64,000 nt of DNA from Lineus longissimus (taxonomy: Eukaryota; Nemertea; Pilidiophora; Heteronemertea; Lineidae), in the NCBI RefSeq assembly GCF_910592395.1, contig NC_088310.1, positions 3,293,501 through 3,357,500 of the forward strand. Reading direction: 5' to 3'. Below the pieces are notes generated by a model, which saw only the letters and a list, made by a program, of their open reading frames with translations, made no database searches and was not told where the DNA came from. The translations under genes and the position numbers were made by a program. Below are positions 3,201-61,250 of this stretch, piece after piece (the first letter of the stretch is position 1; every line of letters starts with the position of its first letter).

Positions 3201-5185
3201 TAAATTGAAGGAGATTTTTCTGAATTTGTTACCAAGACCCCATCCTGGTGAAAAAGCAAGGCAAGGCAAGCGCCTCTTCCCTGTCAGAGTACGAGTCTCT
3301 GCTACAGGTGCTTAAAACACTCAAAGTAGTGAATGTGGGGGAGAAACTGGATTCTCATATCGCCATGATCTTGATATTTTTAGGAGAATCCATTTCAACT
3401 TGCCGTACCCCCGGGAGAAGGATACACACCTGCACCTGATGACCAAAAGGCTCTGGAAGATATTGATAAACGATTGAAGTCACTGATGGCCCCAGAGGAG
3501 TTTGAGGCTCTGAAATCACCAAGGGGAACAACGTCTTTCCAGCACTGCCTATTTACACGAACTGACATGAGGTCATCGGTCGACGTTGATAAACTGGGAG
3601 AACAAGTCTTGAAAGAGACGAAGGAGGAGAGAGACATGAGGATTCGCATGGAACAGATTGAGAAAGATCTGGCTAGTCTTAGTATTCATGCTGATTTAGA
3701 GGTAAGATTGAGAAAGATACAGCAAGGCTTACTCTCAGTATCGATGCTGATAGTCCAGTACTGTGTCATAACTGATTCATCATATCTTATTTTTCTTCCA
3801 GTTTTCTACGCCGGCTTTGTCGGAAGACCAGCTCGAGATGTTACTGGGTCAGTACGCCAGATCAGTGGCCTCGTCTGCCTCTCAGTTAGACACCATCTCG
3901 GAGAATGGAGAGATCATAACTGAAAGGTGAGCACGCAAATGTGATGCTTTAGGTCTTCGACTTTATTGAGTCTGATTTATGAAATTGTCTTCAGCTTTCC
4001 CATTGTCATCCAGAATTTGACTCTCTTTGAGTCGTAGACTTTTAGTGCAACCTTCTGTAAAGAGTTCATCAAATCGTAAACGCCCTTCACCTCCCTATTA
4101 TCTTTTACATTATCTTGTTGGAATATTGCAGTGAAAAGTAGCAGTTGTATATTCTTCTTTCAAAGACAATGGACTCCTTCCTATTTCTACAATCAATTCT
4201 TGTTCAATACACCTGCTTGTTGTCTTTTAGATCTGTTCAGAGTGTTGATATTTACGAGAACCCGCCCACGCTCCCAGAGAACGTGCTGCAACAGCTGTTG
4301 TCAGAGGCAAGGGAGCAGTTAATGTTCGATGAGCATGCACACACCCCAAACACGCCAAATGAATCTGACGATAGAAAAGTGGAGAAGATTTTGAACACAG
4401 CTAGAGGTTAGTAATATCTAAAATATGAGGTTTAAGATCTTCTTATCAAAGGATTGTCTTTGTCAAGAATATTCCGTAGATTTGTCTTTTAAGACCTTGC
4501 TGTTGGTCCTTGGTTCTCTAATCATGACAGATTAAAGTAGACCTCAAGTTAGCATTACATTAACATCTTGAGATAATTTTCAGATGAATTGGCTATGGAT
4601 TCATTAACAGATGAACAAATTCAAGACCTCTTACGAAGCGCAAGAGAATCATCACGATCTTCGAGCAGAAGTACGTTACGGCCAAACTCCAGCTCAGAGA
4701 TTCTAACGCAGAGGAACGATCTTTCACATCGTGATGAGGATCGCGTTATCCTTCCTGAGATTAACCAAACAAATGGCATTGTGGCGCAAAAAGTAAACAA
4801 TACCGACAGACTAAACAACCAGGCAAAGAAATCAAACTCTGAGCGGCGGTCAGCAAACATGGGGTCGGCAAATGTTGTGTGGAATAGCTTTTCAGAGGAT
4901 AGGCTGTCGAGCCGACGGGATTCAAATGGACGTAGCAGTGCAAGTAGTTTGAATGGGTTGCATTTTGAAGGACGTTCGCCCCGACCGCCCGTCTCTAATG
5001 GGTCACTTGGACCGCCATTAGTTAATGGGCAGGCGCACGGTTCTCGATCCTCGGGGCAGGGTCATAGTGCTCGGTCACCAAGGTCAACAAGAAGTCAGAG
5101 ACAGAATGGGTCAGGGCGGCCAAGAAATCTACAGCCCATTAGCACACATCTTGACTTGGATGGTTTAAGTGATGAGGAGTTTTAA
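263..5185 (+). CDS. FSIP1: Fibrous sheath-interacting protein 1-like, 3' part (5' end outside window)
   Basis: Eleven exons: 263-491, 924-1042, 1333-1514, 1728-1852, 2359-2502, 2699-2835, 3031-3141, 3384-3701, 3802-3926, 4231-4406, 4584-5185 (TAA). They give 755 residues in continuous phase; the start codon lies upstream of the window. Recognised from the ordered FSIP1 blocks: the conserved helix with LREAIIKMRKLDRIL, the VFRTQVP block, NQDFIKRNIQLA followed by MTDDEKNRLEDIL, the VPPGEGY block, and the repeated short helices LSEDQLEMLL and LTDEQIQDLLRSA. In mammals FSIP1 binds AKAP4 in the sperm fibrous sheath and is linked to cilia and flagella; the same role here is inference. The N-terminal visible part is strongly acidic and the C-terminal 150 residues are Ser/Arg/Asn-rich and probably disordered. 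Human FSIP1 is about 580 residues, so this protein is longer. The first listed exon begins in phase 0. Confidence 0.88.
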
Positions 5186-15948: not shown

Positions 15949-16035
15949 ATGACTATGTCGGGAGAATGGATTTCAATGCTCCGTTTCCTATCAGCAATGG
16001 AAACGGCAGTGCGAAAAATAATGGTGTCAATTTGA
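15949..16035 (+). promoter_or_regulatory. Upstream ORF overlapping the main start codon
   Basis: An ATG at 15949, with a second in-frame ATG at 15955, opens a 28-codon ORF that ends with TGA at 16033-16035, out of frame with and overlapping the main ATG at 15966. It lies in the same exon, downstream of the acceptor at 15904, so it is in the mature mRNA. Overlapping uORFs usually lower translation of the main frame. Confidence 0.5.
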
Positions 16036-19000
16036 ATAACCCTCCATCCGCACAGAGTACGAGTACCACTGGACTTCTGTCAGGGTTTGATACTCTGTTC
16101 AATAGTTCTAGTCCTGTGCCATCTTATGCAAACGATCCTTTGTGTGGGGCTGATCTCGATTCCTTCTTAGCAGAACAAGGCCAGGAATTTGGCCAAACTG
16201 AAGACATTCAGCCACAGTTGGCTAAGTCATCTGCAGGTATTAAGGTTTTGAAAAATGGTAGTGCCAAATCGACCCCTTTGCAGAATGCTTTGTTTGCTGC
16301 TGGTGTAAATAAAGACGGGAACAAGTCTGTCAATCCTGTGCCTTTAAAAAGTGAGACCAAAAAAATGTCTGATTTGGCTGCAGAGGAAAATTTCATGGGG
16401 TTTCAACCCCTTGATTCTAATGGAAATACAAGAGACGGGTCGCCCAGGGTATCGCCGTTGAAAATGAAGCGTTCTTCAGCTGGTGATAATATGGAACAAG
16501 GTTCTGCTGACACTTCAACAGAAAGTGAAAGCGATGCATCAGAGTCTGAAACTGATTACAAATCGGCAGAAGATGGGGTAGATGCGGCTGATCCTGATGC
16601 CGAGATGGTTGTTGATGAACAAAAGGACAGTGCTGCAGAGGTAGATGATGATGATGATGATGATGATGGTGGGATGGAGGTTGATGAGGCGGTGGGAGAT
16701 GATGAACCCAGGGGCAGGGATTTGTCAGATGCGACTGAAATTGAGAAAAAAGCTGCTGCTGAGACTGAGGATGCATCTGACGAGCTTTTAACTGAAAAAA
16801 AAGCAGCTGAGGCTGAATCAGATGATGAAGCTGATAAGAAAGATAAAGACTTGGATAAAAATGGTGCTGACATGACTGATGCTGAGGATAGGAATGCAGC
16901 CCAAAAGGAGGCTGATGGGCAAGATGAAAATGTGACAGACAGTGATACGGATAAATTGAATGAGTCAGAATCGGCCGATGAGGATTCAAACCAGGATCAT
17001 TCTTATTCACAAAAAAAGAATAATGATGTTGTGGATAAAATTGATGTGGATACAGAGACTGAGGACGAAGGGAAATTAGTGATTGATGACGGTGCGGGTG
17101 ATGAAACAATTGAATCAAAAGACGGCGCTGATGATGGTCAATCAAGTGATGTTGATATTGAGGGCACGAACGGTACTAAATCGCCACGTGATACTCTAAT
17201 TCTTTTCAAGAAGCAGAAAAAGACTACCGTTGACATTGGATTTACGTCACAGACACCGGAACTGCCGGATTTTACAGATTCAAGTGAGTAAAGCTTTTCT
17301 TATTAGAACATAAAAGCATCGTTGACCAGGGGGTCAGAGGTGGTAGAATATGTGGTGTGGGGTTGGCTGTCATGCATGTAGCATACAGTTTTGAGGGGGG
17401 GGGGGCATCATGAAATATGTCACATGTGGTTTCTTTCTTCTTGTATTCACTTTCATATTGTGAGATGTCAAGCTTAAATCCACTAAATCCAATGCTGAAA
17501 TGTTTTGCCTGTTCTTACCTAGTACATATACATTGTAATACTTATAATAATAATTTTAAATCTGATATCCTTGTTTTTAGAGTCGATGTGTTGGTGTGGT
17601 GGAGAAGAGACCCCAGAGATGATCGCGTGTGACAGTCCTCGCTGCAAGATCATTTGGTATCATTACAACTGTGTCAATGTGAAACCTGATGACATCCCGG
17701 AGGGGGACTGGTACTGCCCGACGTGTAAGGGAAGTGGCTTAGACAACAAGGAGAGACCACCAGGTAAATTACAGTCATGACAGTTGCTAGATGACATACA
17801 GGCCTCTCAATCACATCATTTGGGACAAGCCCTGCTTTCCTTAATATTGGCCCATTTTATTCTGATTTCATCACATGCGTGACATTAGTCTTTCTTGTCT
17901 GTCTTTTTGGCATAATCAAGAGACTTACGTGATGTCGGTGTTAGGAAGCATATTCAACCTCTTTAACCTGAAAATGCTTCAGAAAATTTGTAATTTAGAA
18001 CCACCCTGTTTGGGCACACACACCGTAGGCATTGTTGCTGATACCTGTTTCATTTTCTAGACACAGCTAGATTCCATGTAAAGCTGTCTGAAGATGATGA
18101 AGGTAGGCATCTGTGGCGCTTCCAGAAAGGAGCCATCATACTTGTCTCCTCAATAAAATACCAGTACCACTGACAGTAGCTCTCAAATTTTTGAACGGCT
18201 ACTGCGAACTTCAAATATGAAGGGGGAAGATGATCTAAGGCCTAGACTTTGGAAATATAAGCAGTGTGGTTTCCAAAACGGGGTCATTACTTGGTACAAA
18301 TATTTACCTTGGCATGGTGGAAAACATTTCACAGACCCCCACCATGGGTGTCCCCATGATTTCCATTGGTGGTAACACACACATGGGCAATCCAATTCGG
18401 TGATTTCTCCAGAGGTGGATCTATTCACATACCCAGACCTTGATTTGTTTTCAGAACCCAATAAACGTCGGCGGAAACAAACATTGAAGGCGAGGGAGGC
18501 TGCCACTGAGTATGATATTGACTTTGAGATCACGGTCAATGATGATGACAGCGAGCACAATCGCTCTTTCAGCAGGAAGGAAATGGTTGATGATCCACTG
18601 ACCGGAGGCAAGGTTTTCAAAAAGGAAAAAAAAACACCAAAAGTCAAAGTAGTTCGTGAGTTCGATTCAGGCAGTGAGGGTGAATTTGAACTTCCCAGCT
18701 GGCATGGAAACCCAAAGGAGTTGTTTGAAGGTATGACACTCCCTTCACTCTTTTCGATTATCATCACTCCAAACTTAAGTTCGAAGCCTTGGTGTATCCG
18801 TGGGTCTCTTTTGGCCCATAAAAACCTTTTAAAGTAGTTTGGGGGCCAGTATTTTCAAAGATGAGGCGATGAGGTTTCGGCCATTGTAGCCTTTGACCAT
18901 CCTTGACCCACTGACCTAAAAATTGAAAAGCATTTTCTTGCCTTAACTTTTGAAGGAGATATATCTCTCAGGGTCGATTATGAGTCAAAGGCAGTCAGTC

Positions 19001-22000
19001 TCCTACGTCCACGATCTTTATATAAGGTGGTTTTACTTTTTGTTTAAGCCCTTCTGCTCTTACATAACAACTATCGTGTTTTTCCCAGGTTTGCAGAGAC
19101 CACACGGACCAAGAGCAATCAAGTTAAAGAAGCCCTTTGACCATGGTGAGTTAAGGACCTCTCATTCTCTTACCCTGAATGTATTCTTCTTGAGAGATCA
19201 GGACAGACCACTAGAATATTGAGGAACTGGCTCAGGGTAGTATAAGACTGACCAATTGTGATGATTATCACAAGGTTTTCCAATAAATGATAATTTGTGC
19301 TTGTTTGTCATCTTTCAGGTTGGGCCCGGGAAATTGTGGTGCGATTCAAGTATGAAAATTTGAAAGGATCAGGCAGACCGCCAATGGATGTGTACTACTT
19401 CACCCCCGAGGGGAAGAAATTGAGATCCCTCGTCCAAATTGCCGATTATTGTAAGTAAACTCATGTGAGATCAGATTTTAATTTGGTTTATTTTTGATCA
19501 GTTGATAAATTTCTTTGGGAAAAATGACACTATATTTCTCTGAATTATTTTCCAGTGACAGAAACTAATGAAGATTTTGGCCTGACAACTGATAACTTCT
19601 CCCTCAATCGCATCCCAGTGCACAAGGAACCCTGGGAAAACATTCGCATGGCTAACATAGGTCGTAGTGCTGGCTCAGCCAGAGGAGCCCAGTCGAAGCG
19701 TGGCCGACCATCAATGGGCCGCGGCAAAGGCAAACCAATTATGGCGAGTATCAATAGACCAATAGGAAGGCCACCAAAGAACAGCCCAGGAGGAAGTCCA
19801 AGACCATCGTATATGCCTCTAACAGAAGAAAAAGAAGAACCCAAGTCATTTCCGGAGATGTTAAACTTGAAGCCAGTAGTTCAAAAACCGCAAACTGATA
19901 CGCCAACTGGTCCTGCTGTTCCCAGTCAGAAAGCACGGAAGAGTTTCCGCCCGATGGAATTGTCCAAGCGTTTGCTAAATCCGCTTGAACATTCAATGCC
20001 TGATCCTAAGAGACCTAAGTTGAAAGCTGTGCAGGGAGACCGCCATGAGAACCACATACAGTAAGTCAGTGTTTGTTGTATGCTGAATTTATCGAGAAAA
20101 AACCAAACTTGTTGCTGGTACAAGATTTCAAGAACCAGTAATCGGGTGTACCAGGATTATCAAATGACTGACACAACATTTTGTATGACGGTATCGAATA
20201 ACTCATTGATCTTCCGCTGACTTTGGTTTTACGACAGAGCTGTCATGTTTCCAGTAATCCTATATTCATCTTTGCAGGTTGCACAACGAGGGAGGATTCC
20301 GGTTATGCTCGCTTGACTGTGTTGGCCGGGCAGGCAAGGCCCCAGAACTTCACTGTGGCGTCTGCATGTGTCTTTTCCACCCAGAATGTGTACAGTTTGT
20401 TGGAAACACGAATGCTGCTTTGTTTGTTTGCAATGTGAGTAAAAAATCCGCCAAAAAAAGCAGTTTCCAAACATGAGTTTTGCAGCCTTGGATGAGAGAA
20501 TGCTTTCCAATAAATTTTACATTTACACCATTTTAGAACCTTAAATGAATCTATTTGTAAAAACGTAACTGATCCATTTCTATTAAGTTTCTTTCTTCCT
20601 ATTTGCAGCGATGTCGCAAGCAGCCAGTTGACAGCAGTAAGAAACAGCCAGTTGTGATTACGGGGAGTATGTTTGCTACTGGTAGCAAATATACGCCATC
20701 GGCATTGAGTGGCCTAAAGACGCAGCTCGCACAAAATACTTCAGTAGACTTCTCAAACATTCCGAAAACGATTGAATCAATGTCGGATATCATGATGCCA
20801 TTAACAATAGAGAAGGCCAGTCATGACAACGAGACACCACAGAATATGCCGATGCAGCCTTTGGGCAGTCCCAGGGTTCCACCACCCCCTCTACTCAAGC
20901 CTATGACTGTTGCAGCTCACCTCAAGAGTATGGAGCATGAAAGTAAAAAGCAAAATGTTGTGTCATGGTCATTCACGGACGGCAATTTGAAATTTACGAA
21001 CACCATGCCGAAGCCTCCGCCATTAAAGACTGTACGTGCACCACTAGGACAGCTGCCATCGCTGACGACAATGCCAACACTGGCATCCAAACCGACCACT
21101 GTTGCGATGAGCCCAACTTCTCTTTGTCCGACATCAGTGTCGGTTGTCCGTGATGCAGTGAATAATCACTTAGAACAGTCGACGTCTGCGGTTGGAGTGA
21201 GTGGGGCGCCGACAATAATGACCAGTGCGAATTCTAATGACATTCGGATGGCGGGACAGTTACTCACACTCCCCGGTAATATCATTAATCGTATCAAAAT
21301 GAATGAACCATTGGCGCTCAAAATCAACAACCAATCGTTAGTAGTGAATCCGGACTGTTTCGTTCAGACATCTCACGGAGTTAAGATATTCCTGCCCCCG
21401 AATACATTACCTGTCCAAACGGGCAACAAAACAATAAACATCACAGTTCCGCAGACATCATCTTCAGTCATGCCTGCAACGACTGTTTCACATTCCATTA
21501 CTTCTACTATTCAGGCTTCGTCTTGTACGCCAATAGTCGTTGGATCGAACGCTAGTACAGTTTTACCGGGAATACAAAAAAATGCCATGCCAGAAATGGC
21601 TCAACCTGCATTTACGGACCCCGTTTCAAATGTGTCTCCTTTGAAATCTGAAGCAGAGCAGAATGCCTCTGTGCAATCAAAAAGTGTTTCTCCGGATTTG
21701 CCATCTCAGCCTGTAATGATTGGGCAAGGACTTGTACCAGTTCGAATGGAACCGCTACCAGCCGTTTTACCCCCTAAAAGGACCCAGAGGAAGACTCGGG
21801 GAATTAATCCAGCACTTAACTTTATCAAACAGTTACATGGAGGATATGATAGCTTACTGCAGATCTTCAGCTATCTCTCGGTGCCAGATCTCTTGAAGTG
21901 AGTATCACGTTTTCAAATGTTTGGTAAAGGTATCCTGCAATACTCTTTAGGACTTTGAACCAGCACCATGGTCAGAAAAGTTTGAACGAATTTCCCAGAC

Positions 22001-24927
22001 TGCCCAAGTGAAAGTCTACCCAGATGATTGTAAGAGTCAGTTTGTATTGGATTTGTTCCTTTGTTTGGAGTGCCATAACAGTAATAATTGTTGTCAACTT
22101 CAATTTGCAGAGTCAGCCAGGTGTGTCAGCGATGGAGGAGCATAGTAACGGCGTCATGGATGGTAAGTTGGCGATGTTTTTTGGTGAACACAGTCGTTGA
22201 CCATTCATTGGCTTCACAAGTCAGACTTGTCGACACTCATGCCTTCTTTGCCAGGAGAGTTAACTGGATTAAGAAATTATAGTATATTGTATATAAAACC
22301 TCATTTCAAAAGCATAATCGTCAATTGAAACTTTTTTCAGTGGCGGACTGTGAGGTTACGCGGAAATTATGTCACAAATTGGGACACTGCCATGAATTTT
22401 CTACAAAAAGTTGGAACAAAGAAACTGGTATGTATGGCCTTGTAGAGCATTGATGCAGTCTATGATAATATTACGGAGGCTTCATAGAAGAATTGAACAA
22501 TAGATGCATTGCATAAGGGGAATGCCTATTTGCGTCTGCAAGCTTTCAAGCATCTGAACGCATGTTATCTGCCCTTCAATTCAATGGTTTACTGTTCACA
22601 GTCCCCTTTACCTTAATCCCGCTGGACATTCATGCGCGTCTCATTTGATTTTCTAGGATCTCCGGGGTTTGCGCCATATTGATGACCGTAATCGAACCTG
22701 GCACCAGATTACAGGTGTCCTGGATAAAATGACAGATCTGAACGTGATTCACTTTGGCCAATGTCCTGCAAGCATCCTGCATGCCGTCACGGAGAAGGTC
22801 ACAGATCTCAAGGTGCTCACAGCTGAGTGGATCACCGAAATATTTGAAGAGCCTCAAATGTGGTAAGTTGGTGCTTTGAGTTCACTGGTGAAATGGCAAG
22901 CAATGAGGTGTTTCAAGGTGTTTTAGTCTTTTTCAAACTGTGTCTTTCTTTAAGGGGTTAAAATATGGGCACTATTCCTTGTTCCAGGACAACCAACACC
23001 AAACTTGATATGGCTAAATTTGCCAAGATGTCACATTTGGAGGAGCTGCGACTGCGTGGAGTCTGTGGCCTTGTTCTGCCAGCTTTCTCCTTCTCCGGTG
23101 GATTGGAAGAATTCTCTGAACTAAAGAAGCTCAGAAAGTTGGTAAGTACATGTACTCGTTAAATAGTAAGTAGATCACATTTACAATCATAACTGAGATC
23201 ACATTTGTGATGTCACATGATGTGAACGGTGGCCTTCATGGATCAGTGTGGGTTTTTTTGGCGGGCATGGCCAACCAAACCGACAGTAGCCTTATGGGAA
23301 GTTTCTTGGTCGTTTTGAATGTTCACAGGTTGAGCTCAAGTATACATGATGCACTTGTGAGCTGCTCCTGATGTGCATTGTTCGCAGCCTCAGGAAGTAA
23401 CATCCCTATCCCAGTGTACTGAATTATCCTTTCCTTTCCTCATGAGATGGCTTCTTGACATGAAACATCTTCCATTTCAGTCCTTGACAACACTGAAGGA
23501 AGTATCCGGCAGTGACTTCAACTTCATTGGAAAGCTCCCCAACTTGGAGGAACTGGAGATAGGAGATTGTTCTCTATGGACAGAGGAGGTAATAATGAGC
23601 CCCGATATTTGTTTCTACCAGGGAGGGGACATCTCCTGTTACATAACAGAACCGAAAAAAGCAAAGAAAGAATACTGGTAACTTCAAAGCGATATTCATT
23701 GCGGACTTCATTGAATTACACTGCAAGTTTTAGAGCCTGGTTTCCCATTGTGTTCTCACTATAATATGATTAATGCATTCTGTAACATAACTTGTCTCAG
23801 TTGGTTCAGATTCTCTTGGCTTCTCTTTCAGACTTATAGCCATCTTTCTAGATTGGAAAACCTGAGGATTCTGCGTCTTGAGAATGGAGGTGACCTGGAG
23901 GACTCAGGATTAGCTAATGCTCTCAAATGTTTCAAACTGTAAGTTAGTTCATGGTGGCCTTCCTCTGCATTCACTCTTAGGCATAAGTTCATATCACTGT
24001 TGTTTATTGTAAATCGGATCAGTAACTGCAGCCACTTTTGGGTTATAAGTTCCCCGTTACTGACTGAGGATGGGTTGACCTCCCATTTTGCTTGCCTCCA
24101 TGTCTTATTTGTGATGTGATCTTTTTCCAGGTTGACAAGACTTGAGCTTGTAATGTTTGTCATTCCATCAACATTGAAAGATACTCTCTCAGGATTGACG
24201 AATCTGAAGGAGCTTTCAGTGTGGCCAGATCCACGAGATCAGGTAGGTGATAGAAGTGAAGAGAATGCTGTCCAAATACCATCATGTCATGTCGTTATCT
24301 TGAGCCCCATGTCGCAGACCTCCTCGTCGAGGCCGTGTGCACACTTTCCCTTCCATTAGATTCTATTTATAACACCAGGTCTGGATCATCTTCAAATCAC
24401 CAGTCAGACTGCCTACAATCCTAGTGACTTATGAAAGATTGTCACACTCAAATGAAACTGTAATCAATGAATCAAATTTCCAATTCCAGCCTGCCCTTGT
24501 CAACACAAATACCCTAAATGCTGTCAAGAACTTAACGCACCTGACCAAGCTTGAATGGGGTGTTGTGACATCAGAAGACAGTGAAGAAAGGGCAGAGAGT
24601 GACGAGCATGGCAATTTACCATTTCTGCGGTCAGCATTCGTGGAGAAAAAGACGTCTGAGAAATCAGATTCGAAGGTGAAAAGTGAAAAGACTTCTGAGG
24701 GTGAGGAGAGTGGAACTACACATACTGCCATGGAAACTGAGCATCAAGGAGATGAAAATGTTGGTGAGACGGGTGAAGTGTCCCATTCTCCGACATCTGA
24801 GGAAGTGATTACGACACAAGAACTTCATGATCGCTTATCCGGGATGTTGATCGAGACGAAGGTCACTATTAATGACGTAGCAGTGTTGTCGTCGCAGAAT
24901 GGACGGTCGAGAACAAAGTCAACGTGA
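15966..24927 (+). CDS. PHD-MBD-PHD-F-box-LRR protein, putative chromatin-reading SCF receptor
   Basis: Seventeen coding exons: 15966-17283, 17581-17763, 18061-18102, 18455-18730, 19089-19145, 19319-19450, 19556-20060, 20278-20434, 20609-21897, 22111-22162, 22341-22427, 22657-22862, 22988-23141, 23481-23588, 23832-23938, 24131-24242, 24490-24927 (TGA). They sum to 5223 nt, 1740 residues, with phase kept throughout. Order: Asp/Glu-rich region (about 175-420), ING-type PHD (443-492), MBD (about 620-695), basic disordered linker, PHD-like Cys4-His-Cys3 finger (848-892), Ser/Thr/Pro-rich linker, F-box (about 1303-1350), leucine-rich repeats to about 1620, acidic tail. The F-box predicts Skp1/Cullin-1 binding, the PHD histone H3 tail binding, the MBD methyl-CpG binding. 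KDM2 and FBXL19 share PHD-F-box-LRR but carry CXXC and not MBD. No JmjC or CXXC is present. A gene-model fusion is unlikely because no promoter or poly(A) site separates the parts. Confidence 0.85.
17581..17763 (+). other. Exon encoding ING-type PHD finger
   Basis: Encodes a Cys4-His-Cys3 module: CWC, then CDSPRC, then H and C in WYHYNC, then CPTC, with the DWYCPTC ending typical of ING/Set3 PHDs. The aromatic W before the zinc-binding His and the MIACD strand match the pattern that binds trimethylated H3K4 in ING proteins. The binding preference is inferred from motif only. Confidence 0.85.
19089..19640 (+). other. Three exons encoding the methyl-CpG-binding domain
   Basis: The MBD is split over exons 19089-19145, 19319-19450 and the start of 19556-20060. 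The core reads GWAREIVVR, a loop, then MDVYYFTPEGKKLRS and IADYL. Residues matching the DNA-contact set of MeCP2 (R111, D121, Y123, R133) are present as R634, D649, Y651, R661. The DVYYF-P-GKK-RS string is closest to the MBD2/3 type. The loop between R634 and D649 has 14 residues against 9 in MeCP2. Confidence 0.85.
20278..20640 (+). other. Exons encoding second, atypical PHD-like zinc finger
   Basis: Cysteine pattern C-x3-C-x11-C-x2-C-x4-H-x2-C-x13-C-x2-C, residues about 848-892, crossing the junction between exons 20278-20434 and 20609-21897. The order fits PHD (Cys4-His-Cys3), but the first pair spacing of three is unusual. It directly follows the MBD-linked basic linker. Confidence 0.65.
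21811..24560 (+). other. Exons encoding F-box and leucine-rich repeats
   Basis: The F-box reads YDSLLQIFSYLSVPDLLKV then QVCQRWRSI and W-RTVRLRG, the standard Skp1-binding pattern. It is followed by repeated L-x2-L-x-L units such as LEELRLRGV, LEELEIGDC, LRILRLENG and LKELSVWP over exons 22341 to 24560. The F-box/LRR substrate-receptor class is clear; the substrate is unknown. Confidence 0.85.
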
Positions 24928-26239: not shown

Positions 26240-28002
26240 TCAGGATTCACAATCAGAGGATTTGCCTGAATGGACAGGTGTCTTCAGTCATCTCCTGTCT
26301 CTCCACCGAGGAATGTTGAGGACAGTTATATGCAAGGTTGTGACATTTGAGACAGAACCAACCTTGTGGTAAGGTAGTGCTTGGTGAGGAATAGAGGGCA
26401 GGGGTTCACAATCCAAGATTGTGCCTAAATACGGCAGGTGTCTTCCAGTCATCTCCTGTCTCTCCACCGAGGAATGTTGAGGACACTTATATGCAAGGTT
26501 GTGACATTTGAGACAGAACCGACCTTGTGGTAAGGTAGTGCTTGGTGAGGAAAAGAGGGCAGGGGTTCACAATCCAAGATTGTGCCTAAATACGGCAGGT
26601 GTCTTCCAGTCATCTACTGTTTCCACCGAGGAATGTTGAGGACAGTTATATGCAAGGTTGTGACATTTGAGACAGAACCAACCTTGTGGTAAGGTAGTGC
26701 TTGGTGAGGAATAGAGAGCAGGGGTTCACAATCCAAGATTGTGCCTAAATACGGCTGGTGTCTTCCAGTCATCTCTCCACCGAGGAATGTTGAGGACACT
26801 TATATGCAAGGTTGTGACATTTGAGACAGAACCAACCTTTTGGTAAGGTAGTGCTTGGTGAGGAAAAGAGGGCAGGGATTGTGCCTAACTAAATAGGGCA
26901 GGTGTCTTCCAGTCATCTCTCCACCGAGGAATGTTGAGGACACTTATATGCAAGGTTGTGACATTTGAGACAGAACCAACCTTTTGGTAAGGTAGTGCTT
27001 GGTGAGGAAAAGAGGGCAGGGATTGTGCCTAACTAAATAGGGCAGGTGTCTTCCAGTCATCTACTGTCTCTCCACCGAGAATGTTGAGGACAGTTATATG
27101 CAAGGTTGTGACATTTGAGACAGAACCAACCTTGTGGTAAGGTAGTGCTTGGTGAGGAAAAGAGGACAGGGGTTCACAATCCAAGATTGTGCCTAACTAA
27201 ATAGGGCAGGTGTCTTCCAGTCATCTACTGTCTCTCCACCGAGGAATGTTGGGGACAATTATATGCAAGGTTGTGACATTTGAGACAGAACCAACCTTGT
27301 GGTAAGGTAGTGCTTGGTGAGGAAAAGAGGGCAGGGATTGTGCCTAACTAAATAGGGCAGGTGTCTTCCAGTCATCTACTGTCTCTCCACCGAGAATGTT
27401 GAGGACAGTTATATGCAAGGTTGTGACATTTGAGACAGAACCAACCTTGTGGTAAGGTAGTGCTTGGTGAGGAAAAGAGGACAGGGGTTCACAATCCAAG
27501 ATTGTGCCTAACTAAATAGGGCAGGTGTCTTCCAGTCATCTACTGTCTCTCCACCGAGGAATGTTGGGGACAATTATATGCAAGGTTGTGACATTTGAGA
27601 CAGAACCAACCTTGTGGTAAGGTAGTGCTTGGTGAGGAATAGAGGGCAGGGGTTCACAATCCAAGATTGTGCCTAAATAGGGCAGGTGTCTTCCAGTCAT
27701 CTACTGTCTCTCCACCGAGGAATGTTGAGGACAATTATATGCAAGGTTGTGACATTTGAGACAGAACCAATCTTGTGGTAAGGTAGTGCTTGGTGAGGAA
27801 AAGAGGGCAGGGGTTCACAATCCAAGATTGTGCCTAAATACGGCAGGTGTCTTCCAGTCATCTACTGTTTCCACCGAGGAATGTTGAGGACACTTATATG
27901 CAAGGTTGTGACATTTGAGACAGAACCGACCTTGTGGTAAGGTAGTGCTTGGTGAGGAATAGAGGGCAGGGGTTCACAATCCAAAGTTGTGCCTGAAAGA
28001 GC
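26240..28002. repeat. ~160-bp tandem satellite, about 11 copies
   Basis: Tandem units of about 145-170 bp, each containing ccaccgaggaatgttgagga, gcaaggttgtgacatttgag, taaggtagtgcttggtgagg and a variable ggttcacaatccaagattgt segment. The conserved word near aatgttgagg occurs at about 26311, 26471, 26631, 26784, 26929, 27078, 27246, 27397, 27559, 27720 and 27876. Unit lengths differ because some copies lack the ggttcacaatccaag segment. Each unit has two small inverted repeats: CAAGGTTG with CAACCTTG, and CACAATC with GATTGTG. Confidence 0.92.
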
Positions 28003-31952: not shown

Positions 31953-34253
31953 TTATTCGATGAGCTTCTTGGCCTTGAAGAAACGCCTAAGGTAGAGGAC
32001 CTGCCACGTTGCCAGGCCGAGTAAACAGCACATTGAGAATATACTGAAGTATAGCACACGTGAATGGGTGGATTCTGAAATAGAGACAAGGACAATCAGA
32101 CATGTTTTGTTGCGTTGCTGTGAATGGCTGTGAATGGCTGTGTTATTGAGATTTAGTAGCACCAGCTGCAACATTACATTGACAGTTTGCTCTGCCCTGC
32201 TTTTGTTTTGTGGAGCCTGTCCTTATCTGTGAGATGCTCCAGAATATGCAGTTCTGAAACAAAAAATTCCATCACTCCGTACACTGAAGTCGGGCCACTA
32301 TTCTCCAACTTTCTGCTTCAGCAAGTGAACTTACCACAGTCCATTCGATAGTAATGTGAAACAAATTTGATTGATACGAATGAAATGACGAGACAAATTG
32401 TTTTACCAGATGACATAAAATTGTGCAAACAAAATACTGACCATTAGTATCTCTCATCTCCTCTTCCCGAGATCTCATGTAAGCAAAGTCATTGACAATC
32501 GATTCTGAGAGATCTTCAAGTCTTCGCAATTCTACTTCCATTGGCTTCAACTTCTCAGCCTTGGCAATCTGCAATACACAAAAAATGAAAGGAATTGTAC
32601 ATAGTATTACAACCAGAGAATATAACACAAAATACCAAAGATAGAAGACATATCTGTTATGCATAACCTGAACATTGAATGTGGGTCACCGTCAGACAGT
32701 ATCAGTCAAAAGCCACATTTTACCCAAAAAATATACAAAATGCAAATCAAAAAAAAATCTGAGAGCACTGAAATACTCAATCGATGAAGCTGCAACGATT
32801 ACTTGAAATTTCCATTGAATAGACTACCCACCAACAAGACTGAAGATGCTAAAGGTTTTTTGCTCGCTCATTTCCTCAACCATGTAACAAATGGTGACAA
32901 TAAAATCAACACATATAAGGAACCTCATATCTTTCTACTAGTGCCCGAATGATCCTCAGTGGTCTGGGGTGCAGGCTTCAAACCTGTAGCCGACTGACGT
33001 CGGAGTGGTTCAATTCCACCTTTCGGGCGTTTATCACAATACAAAGAGTGAAAGGGAGGACCTTTTGCAAATATTACTTACACTTTCATAATTTTTAGCT
33101 TCTACTCCATGTTTCATCATGAGGAACACCTCTCTATCTGACCCCTGGCCACCTGGTGGGAGACAAAACATTTTAGAACATTTCAAACGGACCCCATTTC
33201 AAACACAATTTGATAGCTCAGGGATCAACACCGAGTTGGTTCTACTTCTTCTTCTCTCATGCTACATTGGAAACCTTGGTTCTACTTATGGCTTTCTCAC
33301 TGAACAAGATCTTAAGAAACCTGACCACAAGGTTAACTTCATGGACAACCAACCTTAACTAACTATATTGGCACCATGACAATGATGCAGATAATTGATT
33401 TTCCACTTTTAAATGAGACAGACTTTCACAGATTCAGAGCTTTTGAAGGAATTATATCAAACTTTTGAAAACCATACCTCCAGACATAACGGACACAAAG
33501 CACACCTCAAACATGTCATATTCTTCTGTTGTAAAGGCAAACTTTCCTTTGGTGGCATCTTCCTTTTGATACAAAATGTGACCTTTGGAGTCTTTTACCT
33601 GGAATCATAAGCAATATACAATTTATCAATACATGTGAAAAGAACTAGGCCTACCTGCAGAAAAGGTTTCCAAAAATACTCTTCAGATAGGGATGTCTTT
33701 CTGACAACAAACCTATAAAATATCGAAACAGCTGTTGAACGAATGCACAGGCATTGCGAGTTGACAGTTCAGTTAACGTTTTGGGCTCCGATTATTGTAT
33801 AATGTATCGCCATGTCTTAGAAGATTTGTGTAATATCGCCGCTTTTCAATGGAAATTAACGTTACGAGGTAAGTGGCAATTAGGCTATAGACTGATACTA
33901 CAATACCGAGTTGTAGGATGCCGATGCGCTGCATGCTTCTGCAGGCAGGTGCAGTGCTCCTGTTAGCCTCTCTCTTCATCACAACTCACAGACTCGGTTT
34001 AGTTTTCACTATTTTTTCTTTGATTTCAAAAACAAGAAGACAAAGCCATGGTTATAAGGATACTAACATGTATTGACCCCTTCTGACCGGGGGCCTCGGT
34101 GAACTCGAATTCGCCTGTTACCAACACATCTTTATGGATTTCCTCTCTCAAACATTTTTTGTTGTTGGCACCCGGAGACAAACTAAACCTCAAAGCATCG
34201 ATGCTAATGAAGCAAATACTGCACACAAGTAATAAATATTGTGTCAGATCCAT
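31953..34253 (-). CDS. TMED10: Transmembrane emp24 domain-containing protein 10 (p24 delta)
   Basis: Five exons on the minus strand: 34253-34068, 33598-33478, 33152-33082, 32568-32442, 32074-31953 (TAA). Total 627 nt, 208 residues; human TMED10 has 219. A signal peptide (about 1-20) is followed by the GOLD domain with [16 protein letters not shown] and [18 protein letters not shown], a coiled-coil with [18 protein letters not shown], a single membrane segment, and the cytosolic tail [11 protein letters not shown] with the FF and KK signals for COPII and COPI. It is a cargo receptor cycling between ER and Golgi. ATG 34253 is chosen because it directly precedes the signal peptide; an in-frame ATG further upstream would add 32 residues of no clear function. 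The intron between exons 33082 and 32568 holds a tRNA gene on the other strand. Confidence 0.95.
32877..32919 (+). promoter_or_regulatory. External Pol III promoter of tRNA-Sec (PSE-like and TATA)
   Basis: A TATA-like catataag at 32912-32919 sits about 30 bases before the tRNA 5' end, and a PSE-like caaccatgtaacaaatggtg at 32877-32896 sits about 65 bases before it. This is the spacing of the gene-external type 3 promoter known for vertebrate tRNA-Sec genes. The PSE match is by eye. Confidence 0.55.
32943..33029 (+). tRNA. tRNA-Sec: Selenocysteine tRNA, anticodon TCA
   Basis: Eighty-seven nucleotides nearly identical to animal tRNA-Sec: starts gcccgaatgatcctcagtgg, anticodon TCA at 32978-32980 inside the caggcttcaaacctg arm, a long variable arm with CCGAC pairing GTCGG, the T arm agtggttcaattccacc, and the acceptor 3' strand ttcgggc plus discriminator G. 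The acceptor stem gcccgaa pairs with ttcgggc. Length and long variable arm fit the family. It delivers selenocysteine at UGA codons. It is encoded antisense within a TMED10 intron. The nearest run of four T downstream is at about 33062. Confidence 0.97.
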
Positions 34254-59674: not shown

Positions 59675-61250
59675 TAATGAACTGGTGCTGGGTGATCTTT
59701 GTGAACTGGTGCAAGATGATCCGCATGAACTGGTGCTGGATGATCTATGTGAACTGGTGCAAGATGATCCGCATAAACTGGTGCTGGATGATCTATGTGA
59801 ACTGGTGCAAGATGATCCGCATGAACTGGTGCTGGATGATCTATGTGAACTGGTGCAAGATGATCCGCATGAACTGGTGCTGGATGATCTATGTGAACTG
59901 GTGCTGGATGATCCACATGAACTGGTGCTGGATGATCTATGTGAACTGGTGCAAGATGATCCGCATGAACTGGTGCTGGATGATCCGCATGAACTGGTGC
60001 TGGATGATCCGTGTGAACTGGTGCTGGATGATCCGCATGAACTGGTGCTGGATGATCCGCATGAACTGGTGCTGGATGATCCGCATGAACTGGTGCAAGA
60101 TGATCTATGTGAACTGGTGCAAGATGATCCGCATGAACTGGTGCTGGATGATCTATGTGAACTGGTGCAAGATGATCTATGTGAACTGGTGCTGGATGAT
60201 CCACATGAACTGGTGCTGGATGATCTATGTGAACTGGTGCAAGATGATCCGCATGAACTGGTGCTGGATGATCCGCATGAACTGGTGCTGGATGATCCGT
60301 GTGAACTGGTGCTGGATGATCCGCATGAACTGGTGCTGGATGATCCGCATGAACTGGTGCTGGATGATCCGCATGAACTGGTGCTGGATGATCTATGTGA
60401 ACTGGTGCTGGATGATCCGCATGAACTGGTGCAAGATGATCTATGTGAACTGGTGCAAGATGATCCGCATGAACTGGTGCTGGATGATCTATGTGAACTG
60501 GTGCAAGATGATCCGCATGAACTGGTGCTGGATGATCTATGTGAACTGGTGCAAGATGATCCGCATGAACTGGTGCTGGATGATCTATGTGAACTGGTGC
60601 AAGATGATCTATGTGAACTGGTGCAAGATGATCCGCATGAACTGGTGCTGGATGATCTATGTGAACTGGTGCAAGATGATCCGCATGAACTGGTGCAAGA
60701 TGATCTATGTGAACTGGTGCAAGATGATCTATGTGAACTGGTGCAAGATGATCTATGTGAACTGGTGCAAGATGATCTATGTGAACTGGTGCAAGATGAT
60801 CTATGTGAACTGGTGCAAGATGATCTATGTGAACTGGTGCAAGATGATCCGCATGAACTGGTGCTGGATGATCTATGTGAACTGGTGCAAGATGATCCGC
60901 ATGAACTGGTGCTGGATGATCTATGTGAACTGGTGCAAGATGATCCGCATGAACTGGTGCTGGATGATCTATGTGAGCTGGTGCTGGATGATCCGTATGA
61001 ACTGGTGCTGGATGATCTATGTGAACTGGTGCAAGATGATCCGCATGAACTGGTGCAAGATGATCTATGTGAACTGGTGCAAGATGATCTATGTGAACTG
61101 GTGCAAGATGATCCGCATGAACTGGTGCTGGATGATCTATGTGAGCTGGTGCTGGATGATCCGTATGAACTGGTGCTGGATGATCTATGTGAACTGCTGC
61201 TGGATGATCCGCATGAACTGGTGCTGGATGATCCGCGTGAACTGGTGCAT
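59675..61250. repeat. 24-bp minisatellite, about 66 copies
   Basis: Tandem 24-bp units of the form gaactggtgctggatgatcc plus gcat. Two variable sites alternate: ctg or caa in the middle, and ccgcat, ctatgt, ccgtgt, ccacat or ccgtat at the end. There are no length changes, so several frames on both strands stay open for over 500 codons. None has a start context, a splice acceptor, or a frame that reaches the donor-like site at 61300. It is best read as an intronic minisatellite. Confidence 0.95.

Follow-up and report, generated by a model that had tools for sequence, protein, structure and literature searches.

A 64,000-nucleotide (nt) stretch of the genome of the nemertean Lineus longissimus (contig NC_088310.1, positions 3,293,501 to 3,357,500; hereafter the window) contains a gene at 15966-24927 whose predicted product of 1740 residues carries both a methyl-CpG-binding domain (MBD) and an F-box with leucine-rich repeats (LRRs). 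Judged from the sequences, this combination is not a fusion artefact. Three homology searches gave at least 28 multi-domain relatives, and in our own Pfam scans 28 of 28 have MBD and F-box in the same protein (19/19 and 9/9; E up to 0.01 for the MBD). Since the searches selected for resemblance to the complete architecture, the count reflects conservation and not frequency among MBD proteins. In the precomputed table of one homology listing, 20 of 94 rows have the MBD family PF01429, and all 20 of these also have an F-box family. The best reading is a methyl-CpG-anchored FBXL protein, probably a receptor of SKP1-CUL1-F-box (SCF) type or else, possibly, a recruiter that like FBXL19 works with SKP1 but no cullin. 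We propose the family label MBD-FBXL.

The relatives with species names (24) come from the nemertean Tubulanus, the brachiopod Lingula and the priapulid Priapulus, from molluscs, and from arthropods, these being the groups to which we take the species to belong. Among the molluscs are Saccostrea, Pecten, Solemya, Sinanodonta, Potamilus, Ruditapes, Mercenaria, Mya and Mactra, and also Patella, Lottia, Batillaria, Babylonia, Gigantopelta and Littorina; the arthropods are two Centruroides (scorpions), the shrimps Penaeus vannamei and Penaeus indicus, and the tephritid flies Zeugodacus and Bactrocera. Four more members (P0005, P0010, P0019 and P0045) are unbroken open reading frames (ORFs) of 911-1637 residues on contigs of 3.2-6.4 kb, as would fit spliced transcripts. 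The fragments P0038, P0040, P0041, P0042, P0046 and P0049, for which the precomputed table lists no MBD, were left out, as were other LRR-only, F-box-only and BAZ2 matches. The original prediction spoke of an invertebrate counterpart of known proteins; relatives do occur in many invertebrates, and among the matches listed the range narrows, on present hits, to protostomes.

MBD, F-box and leucine-rich repeats

All features described here are on the forward strand. The MBD (19121..19611, residues 618-688) is spread over three exons and matches PF01429 at 4.1e-10 (39.6 bits against a curated cut-off of 21); the exon at 19319, earlier assigned to the MBD family, does lie in the stretch that scores. 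Searched against PDB sequences, this domain finds MBD2 (6e-6), MBD4 and BAZ2B. Five positions (Arg, Asp, Tyr, Arg, Ser) are presumably the methyl-CpG contacts. The first four residues are present in 29/29 family MBDs (the 28 relatives and the window protein) and Ser in 27/29, so that 27 of the 29 retain all five, the window protein included; in the two tephritid flies Ser is replaced by Thr. From these residues, methyl-dependence of the family MBD is likely.

The F-box (21848..22358, residues 1304-1343) is recognised both as F-box-like PF12937 (7.2e-11, 42.1 bits, cut-off 24.3) and by the Pfam F-box family (2.2e-8, 34.1 bits, cut-off 20.5). SKP2 is the PDB sequence named for the window F-box, and among PDB chains it is the best match (1e-9), closer than KDM2B (1e-3), with FBXL19 lying outside that comparison. 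Directly after the F-box follows the LRR arc (22702..24597, residues ~1382-1631), matched in the window protein by LRR_14 (PF23598) at 2e-6, which is below the curated cut-off. The structure model of the ortholog P0004 has a predicted F-box-LRR fold, and its best fold matches are the SKP1-bound FBXL17 and FBXL2.

PHD fingers, gene model and neighbouring sequence

Two zinc fingers flank the MBD. The N-terminal one (17589..17726, residues 443-488) has its own exon (17581-17763) and is a C4HC3 PHD finger of the ING type. Its PF00628 score in the whole protein, 24.1 bits, just passes the Pfam cut-off of 24.0, and rises to 31.1 bits with the exon alone; PDB sequence matches are to YNG2 (1.1e-13), ING1 (1e-11) and the ING1-5 group. 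In PHD fingers of this type the cage for histone H3 trimethylated at lysine 4 (H3K4me3) is formed by Tyr, Met and Trp. Aligned with ING, the window finger retains Met and Trp, while the first Tyr is replaced by Met. The ING-type pattern occurs in one of the 29 sequences, the window protein alone, and PF00628 in 0/28 relatives at E up to 0.01, two of which have a weak ASH2-type PHD match. Exons 2 to 6, including the PHD exon 2, have phase 1 on both sides, which would fit gain of this exon by shuffling and would allow it to be skipped in frame.

The second zinc finger (20306..20614, residues 848-892; C4HC3 with an extra Cys) stays under the Pfam cut-off, with an E of 0.025 when scanned alone. 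It is nevertheless taken as a divergent PHD because a 9-sequence profile has the PHD of PHF13 as its nearest match (7e-4). By pattern it is present in 26/29 sequences; it was not found in this way in P0045 and the flies P0047 and P0048, which retain MBD and F-box. Two residues ahead of the zinc-binding His, H3K4me3-reading PHD fingers have the Trp of the cage. Leu takes its place in 9/9 second fingers, which makes H3K4me3 reading by this finger unlikely. Between it and the F-box lies a conserved small segment (21251..21448, residues 1105-1170, GQLLTLP...FLPPNTLPV), 62% identical to Tubulanus over 66 residues and predicted to be beta-rich (model confidence, pLDDT, ~85-89 across the centre); it may be a separate domain, and it has no Pfam family and no convincing fold match. 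The family core runs from the MBD through the divergent PHD and this small beta-rich segment to F-box and LRR. Pfam and PDB matches and the PHF13 profile recover in the window protein every part of the layout originally predicted for it (N-terminal PHD, MBD, second zinc finger, F-box, LRRs); as a family layout this fails at the N-terminal PHD, which the 28 others lack.

The gene was rebuilt with 17 exons, in agreement with the continuous, phase-consistent gene first proposed: 15966-17283, 17581-17763, 18061-18102, 18455-18730, 19089-19145, 19319-19450, 19556-20060, 20278-20434, 20609-21897, 22111-22162, 22341-22427, 22657-22862, 22988-23141, 23481-23588, 23832-23938, 24131-24242 and 24490-24927. 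In the motif-based splicing check all 16 introns (105-358 bp) are GT-AG with consistent phases, and the reading frame of 5223 nt has one stop, after residue 1740. Splice sites were scored leave-one-out against all 3978 AG and 3876 GT sites of the window. The 16 acceptors fall within the top 5.1% and 15 of the 16 donors within the top 7.3%, the donor of intron 14 being at 15.4%. Exon 3 (18061-18102, 42 nt) is the least certain part of the predicted model. Exon 1 (15966..17283) encodes an acidic, low-complexity N-terminal part. The fragment P0038 is 100% identical to the window gene over the aligned part, with two differences across exon 9 by eye; as it ends at the exon 9 donor, it looks like a genomic ORF.

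About 1.3 kb downstream of the gene a 161-bp unit is repeated in tandem ~11 times (26246-27994), and upstream, on the same strand, an exon-like ORF (3384-3920) matches the FSIP1 family (1.6e-10). Elsewhere in the window there are an exon-like ORF on the reverse strand (32275-32685) with a match to the p24/EMP24 GOLD family (3.9e-9), a selenocysteine tRNA gene on the forward strand (32943-33028; Rfam tRNA-Sec, 82.2 bits), and a 48/72-bp tandem array (59678-61248, ~33 units of 48 bp) in which two frames per strand are open for more than 500 codons.

Possible functions and comparison with known systems

The nearest likeness in layout is to KDM2A/KDM2B and FBXL19, in which the order is CXXC, PHD, F-box and LRR: in both cases a CpG reader precedes a PHD, and an F-box-LRR module plausibly couples CpG state to other machinery. 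With an MBD in place of the CXXC, the opposite CpG preference would be expected. No zf-CXXC and no JmjC is among the Pfam families matched by the window protein at E up to 1, and among PDB chains the F-box is nearer to SKP2 than to KDM2B, so the protein works like KDM2/FBXL19 at most and is not classed among them. Of the counterpart originally proposed, the similar layout stands; a KDM2/FBXL19 homologue with one domain swapped is not supported by the Pfam families and PDB chains compared. The SCF receptors FBXL17, FBXL2 and SKP2 share the F-box-LRR fold, SKP2 also the F-box sequence; we know of no DNA-reading or histone-reading domain in these three. BAZ2A and BAZ2B resemble the family in their TAM/MBD, but have no F-box and have other domains (DDT-type, PHD and bromodomain); neither a bromodomain nor a DDT-type domain is among the Pfam families matched by the window protein. 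MBD2/3, which acts through the nucleosome remodelling and deacetylase complex (NuRD), likewise has an MBD with the methyl-CpG residues, and to our knowledge no F-box or LRR.

In the mechanism we prefer, the MBD would tether the protein to methylated CpGs, which in these animals lie mostly within active gene bodies. The F-box would bind SKP1 and through it reach CUL1-RBX1, and the LRR arc would hold the substrate, a chromatin protein at methylated genes that would then be ubiquitylated. In the window lineage, the additional ING-type PHD on its skippable, phase-symmetric exon would add a contact with the H3 tail. That MBD-FBXL proteins combine methylated-CpG anchoring with SCF ubiquitylation at methylated genes we consider nearly an even prospect. 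The wider picture is held more tentatively: a methyl-CpG-directed SCF ligase throughout the protostomes that would mirror KDM2/FBXL19, working at methylated gene bodies and not at unmethylated CpG islands. In the window lineage, exon gain would have supplied an H3-tail reader.

Several observations weigh against this mechanism. A canonical F-box starts with Leu-Pro. This start is absent in 26/26 family F-boxes read by eye (those of P0020, P0035 and P0036 were missed by the pattern, so 26 of 29 were read), and the Pfam F-box matches begin only at profile position 7-9. The missing Leu-Pro would suit a SKP1-binding recruiter that is no ligase, its F-box-LRR bringing a non-cullin complex to methylated CpGs. 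There are precedents: KDM2B recruits variant Polycomb repressive complex 1, its partners being RING1B, BCOR/BCORL1, PCGF1, RYBP, YAF2 and SKP1 (available excerpt of PMC3524939), while purification of FBXL19 yielded SKP1 but neither CUL1 nor RBX1/2, and FBXL19 requires its F-box for the cyclin-dependent kinase (CDK)-Mediator complex (excerpt of PMC5997449). The predicted fold, closest to the SKP1-bound receptors FBXL17 and FBXL2, and the F-box sequence, which scores SKP2 above KDM2B, point the other way and leave the recruiter doubtful. The MBD also gives grounds for caution. The family profile matches the BAZ2B TAM (1.5e-9) above MBD2 (2e-7), with the BAZ2B match reaching further C-terminally, as if the domain, in the manner of MBD3 or the BAZ2 TAM, bound protein or DNA (or CpG whether methylated or not), and acted with the F-box-LRR in chromatin. 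Moreover, R, D, Y and R are retained in the fly members although flies are not known to have meaningful CpG methylation, so that these residues may serve plain CpG or other DNA binding. For D. melanogaster, CpG is described as not methylated at high levels (excerpt of PMC5240623). A non-reading MBD is still unlikely in view of BAZ2 itself: of five BAZ2 sequences four could be aligned (the motif of P0029 was not recovered), and in these Glu stands at the Asp position and Ala at the methyl-reading Tyr position in 4/4, with Gln for Ser in 2/4. In the family, by contrast, all five residues are intact in 27 of 29 MBDs.

Two further alternatives concern the gene model. The PHD exon, or exon 1 together with it, might lie outside the mRNA, so that the product starts nearer the MBD. 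The absence of the ING-type PHD from all relatives would agree with this, as would exon 1, which has no match in 27 relatives at E up to 1 and shares a short MGF-x-P patch with Tubulanus alone. Exon 2, however, is open in the PHD frame only, its acceptor and donor rank in the top 1.7% of AG and 4.0% of GT sites of the window, and its 1-1 phases fit both neighbours, making a shorter product quite improbable. A split into two genes between MBD and F-box parts has next to no probability: exon 9 runs in a single open frame from the last part of the second zinc finger into the first part of the F-box, and with both domains in single proteins in all 28 homology-retrieved relatives such a break is ruled out, unless all gene models share the same error. 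The single protein of the original prediction is thus upheld.

Possible meaning for invertebrate DNA methylation

In the open literature searched, no description of an MBD + F-box combination was found, and in the available portions of papers on invertebrate MBD readers (MBD2/3, and MBD4 in some annelids) the word F-box is absent. The combination is visible in public databases through the Pfam matches of these proteins, and the relatives, though present in many invertebrates, appear unstudied; among the 24 with species names, the protein name is 'uncharacterized' for 17, 'hypothetical' for 6 and 'mucin-4-like' for 1. Three annelids have MBD1/2/3, and one of these also MBD4 (excerpt of PMC11292947). 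The role of invertebrate gene-body methylation is a long-standing open question, and MBD2/3 is generally given as the sole invertebrate MBD protein (excerpt of PMC5240623). A conserved second MBD protein with a ubiquitin-type module is a direct candidate for an output of gene-body methylation, and the fly members, in which little methylation is expected, provide a natural control. The family may thus tie DNA methylation to protein control.
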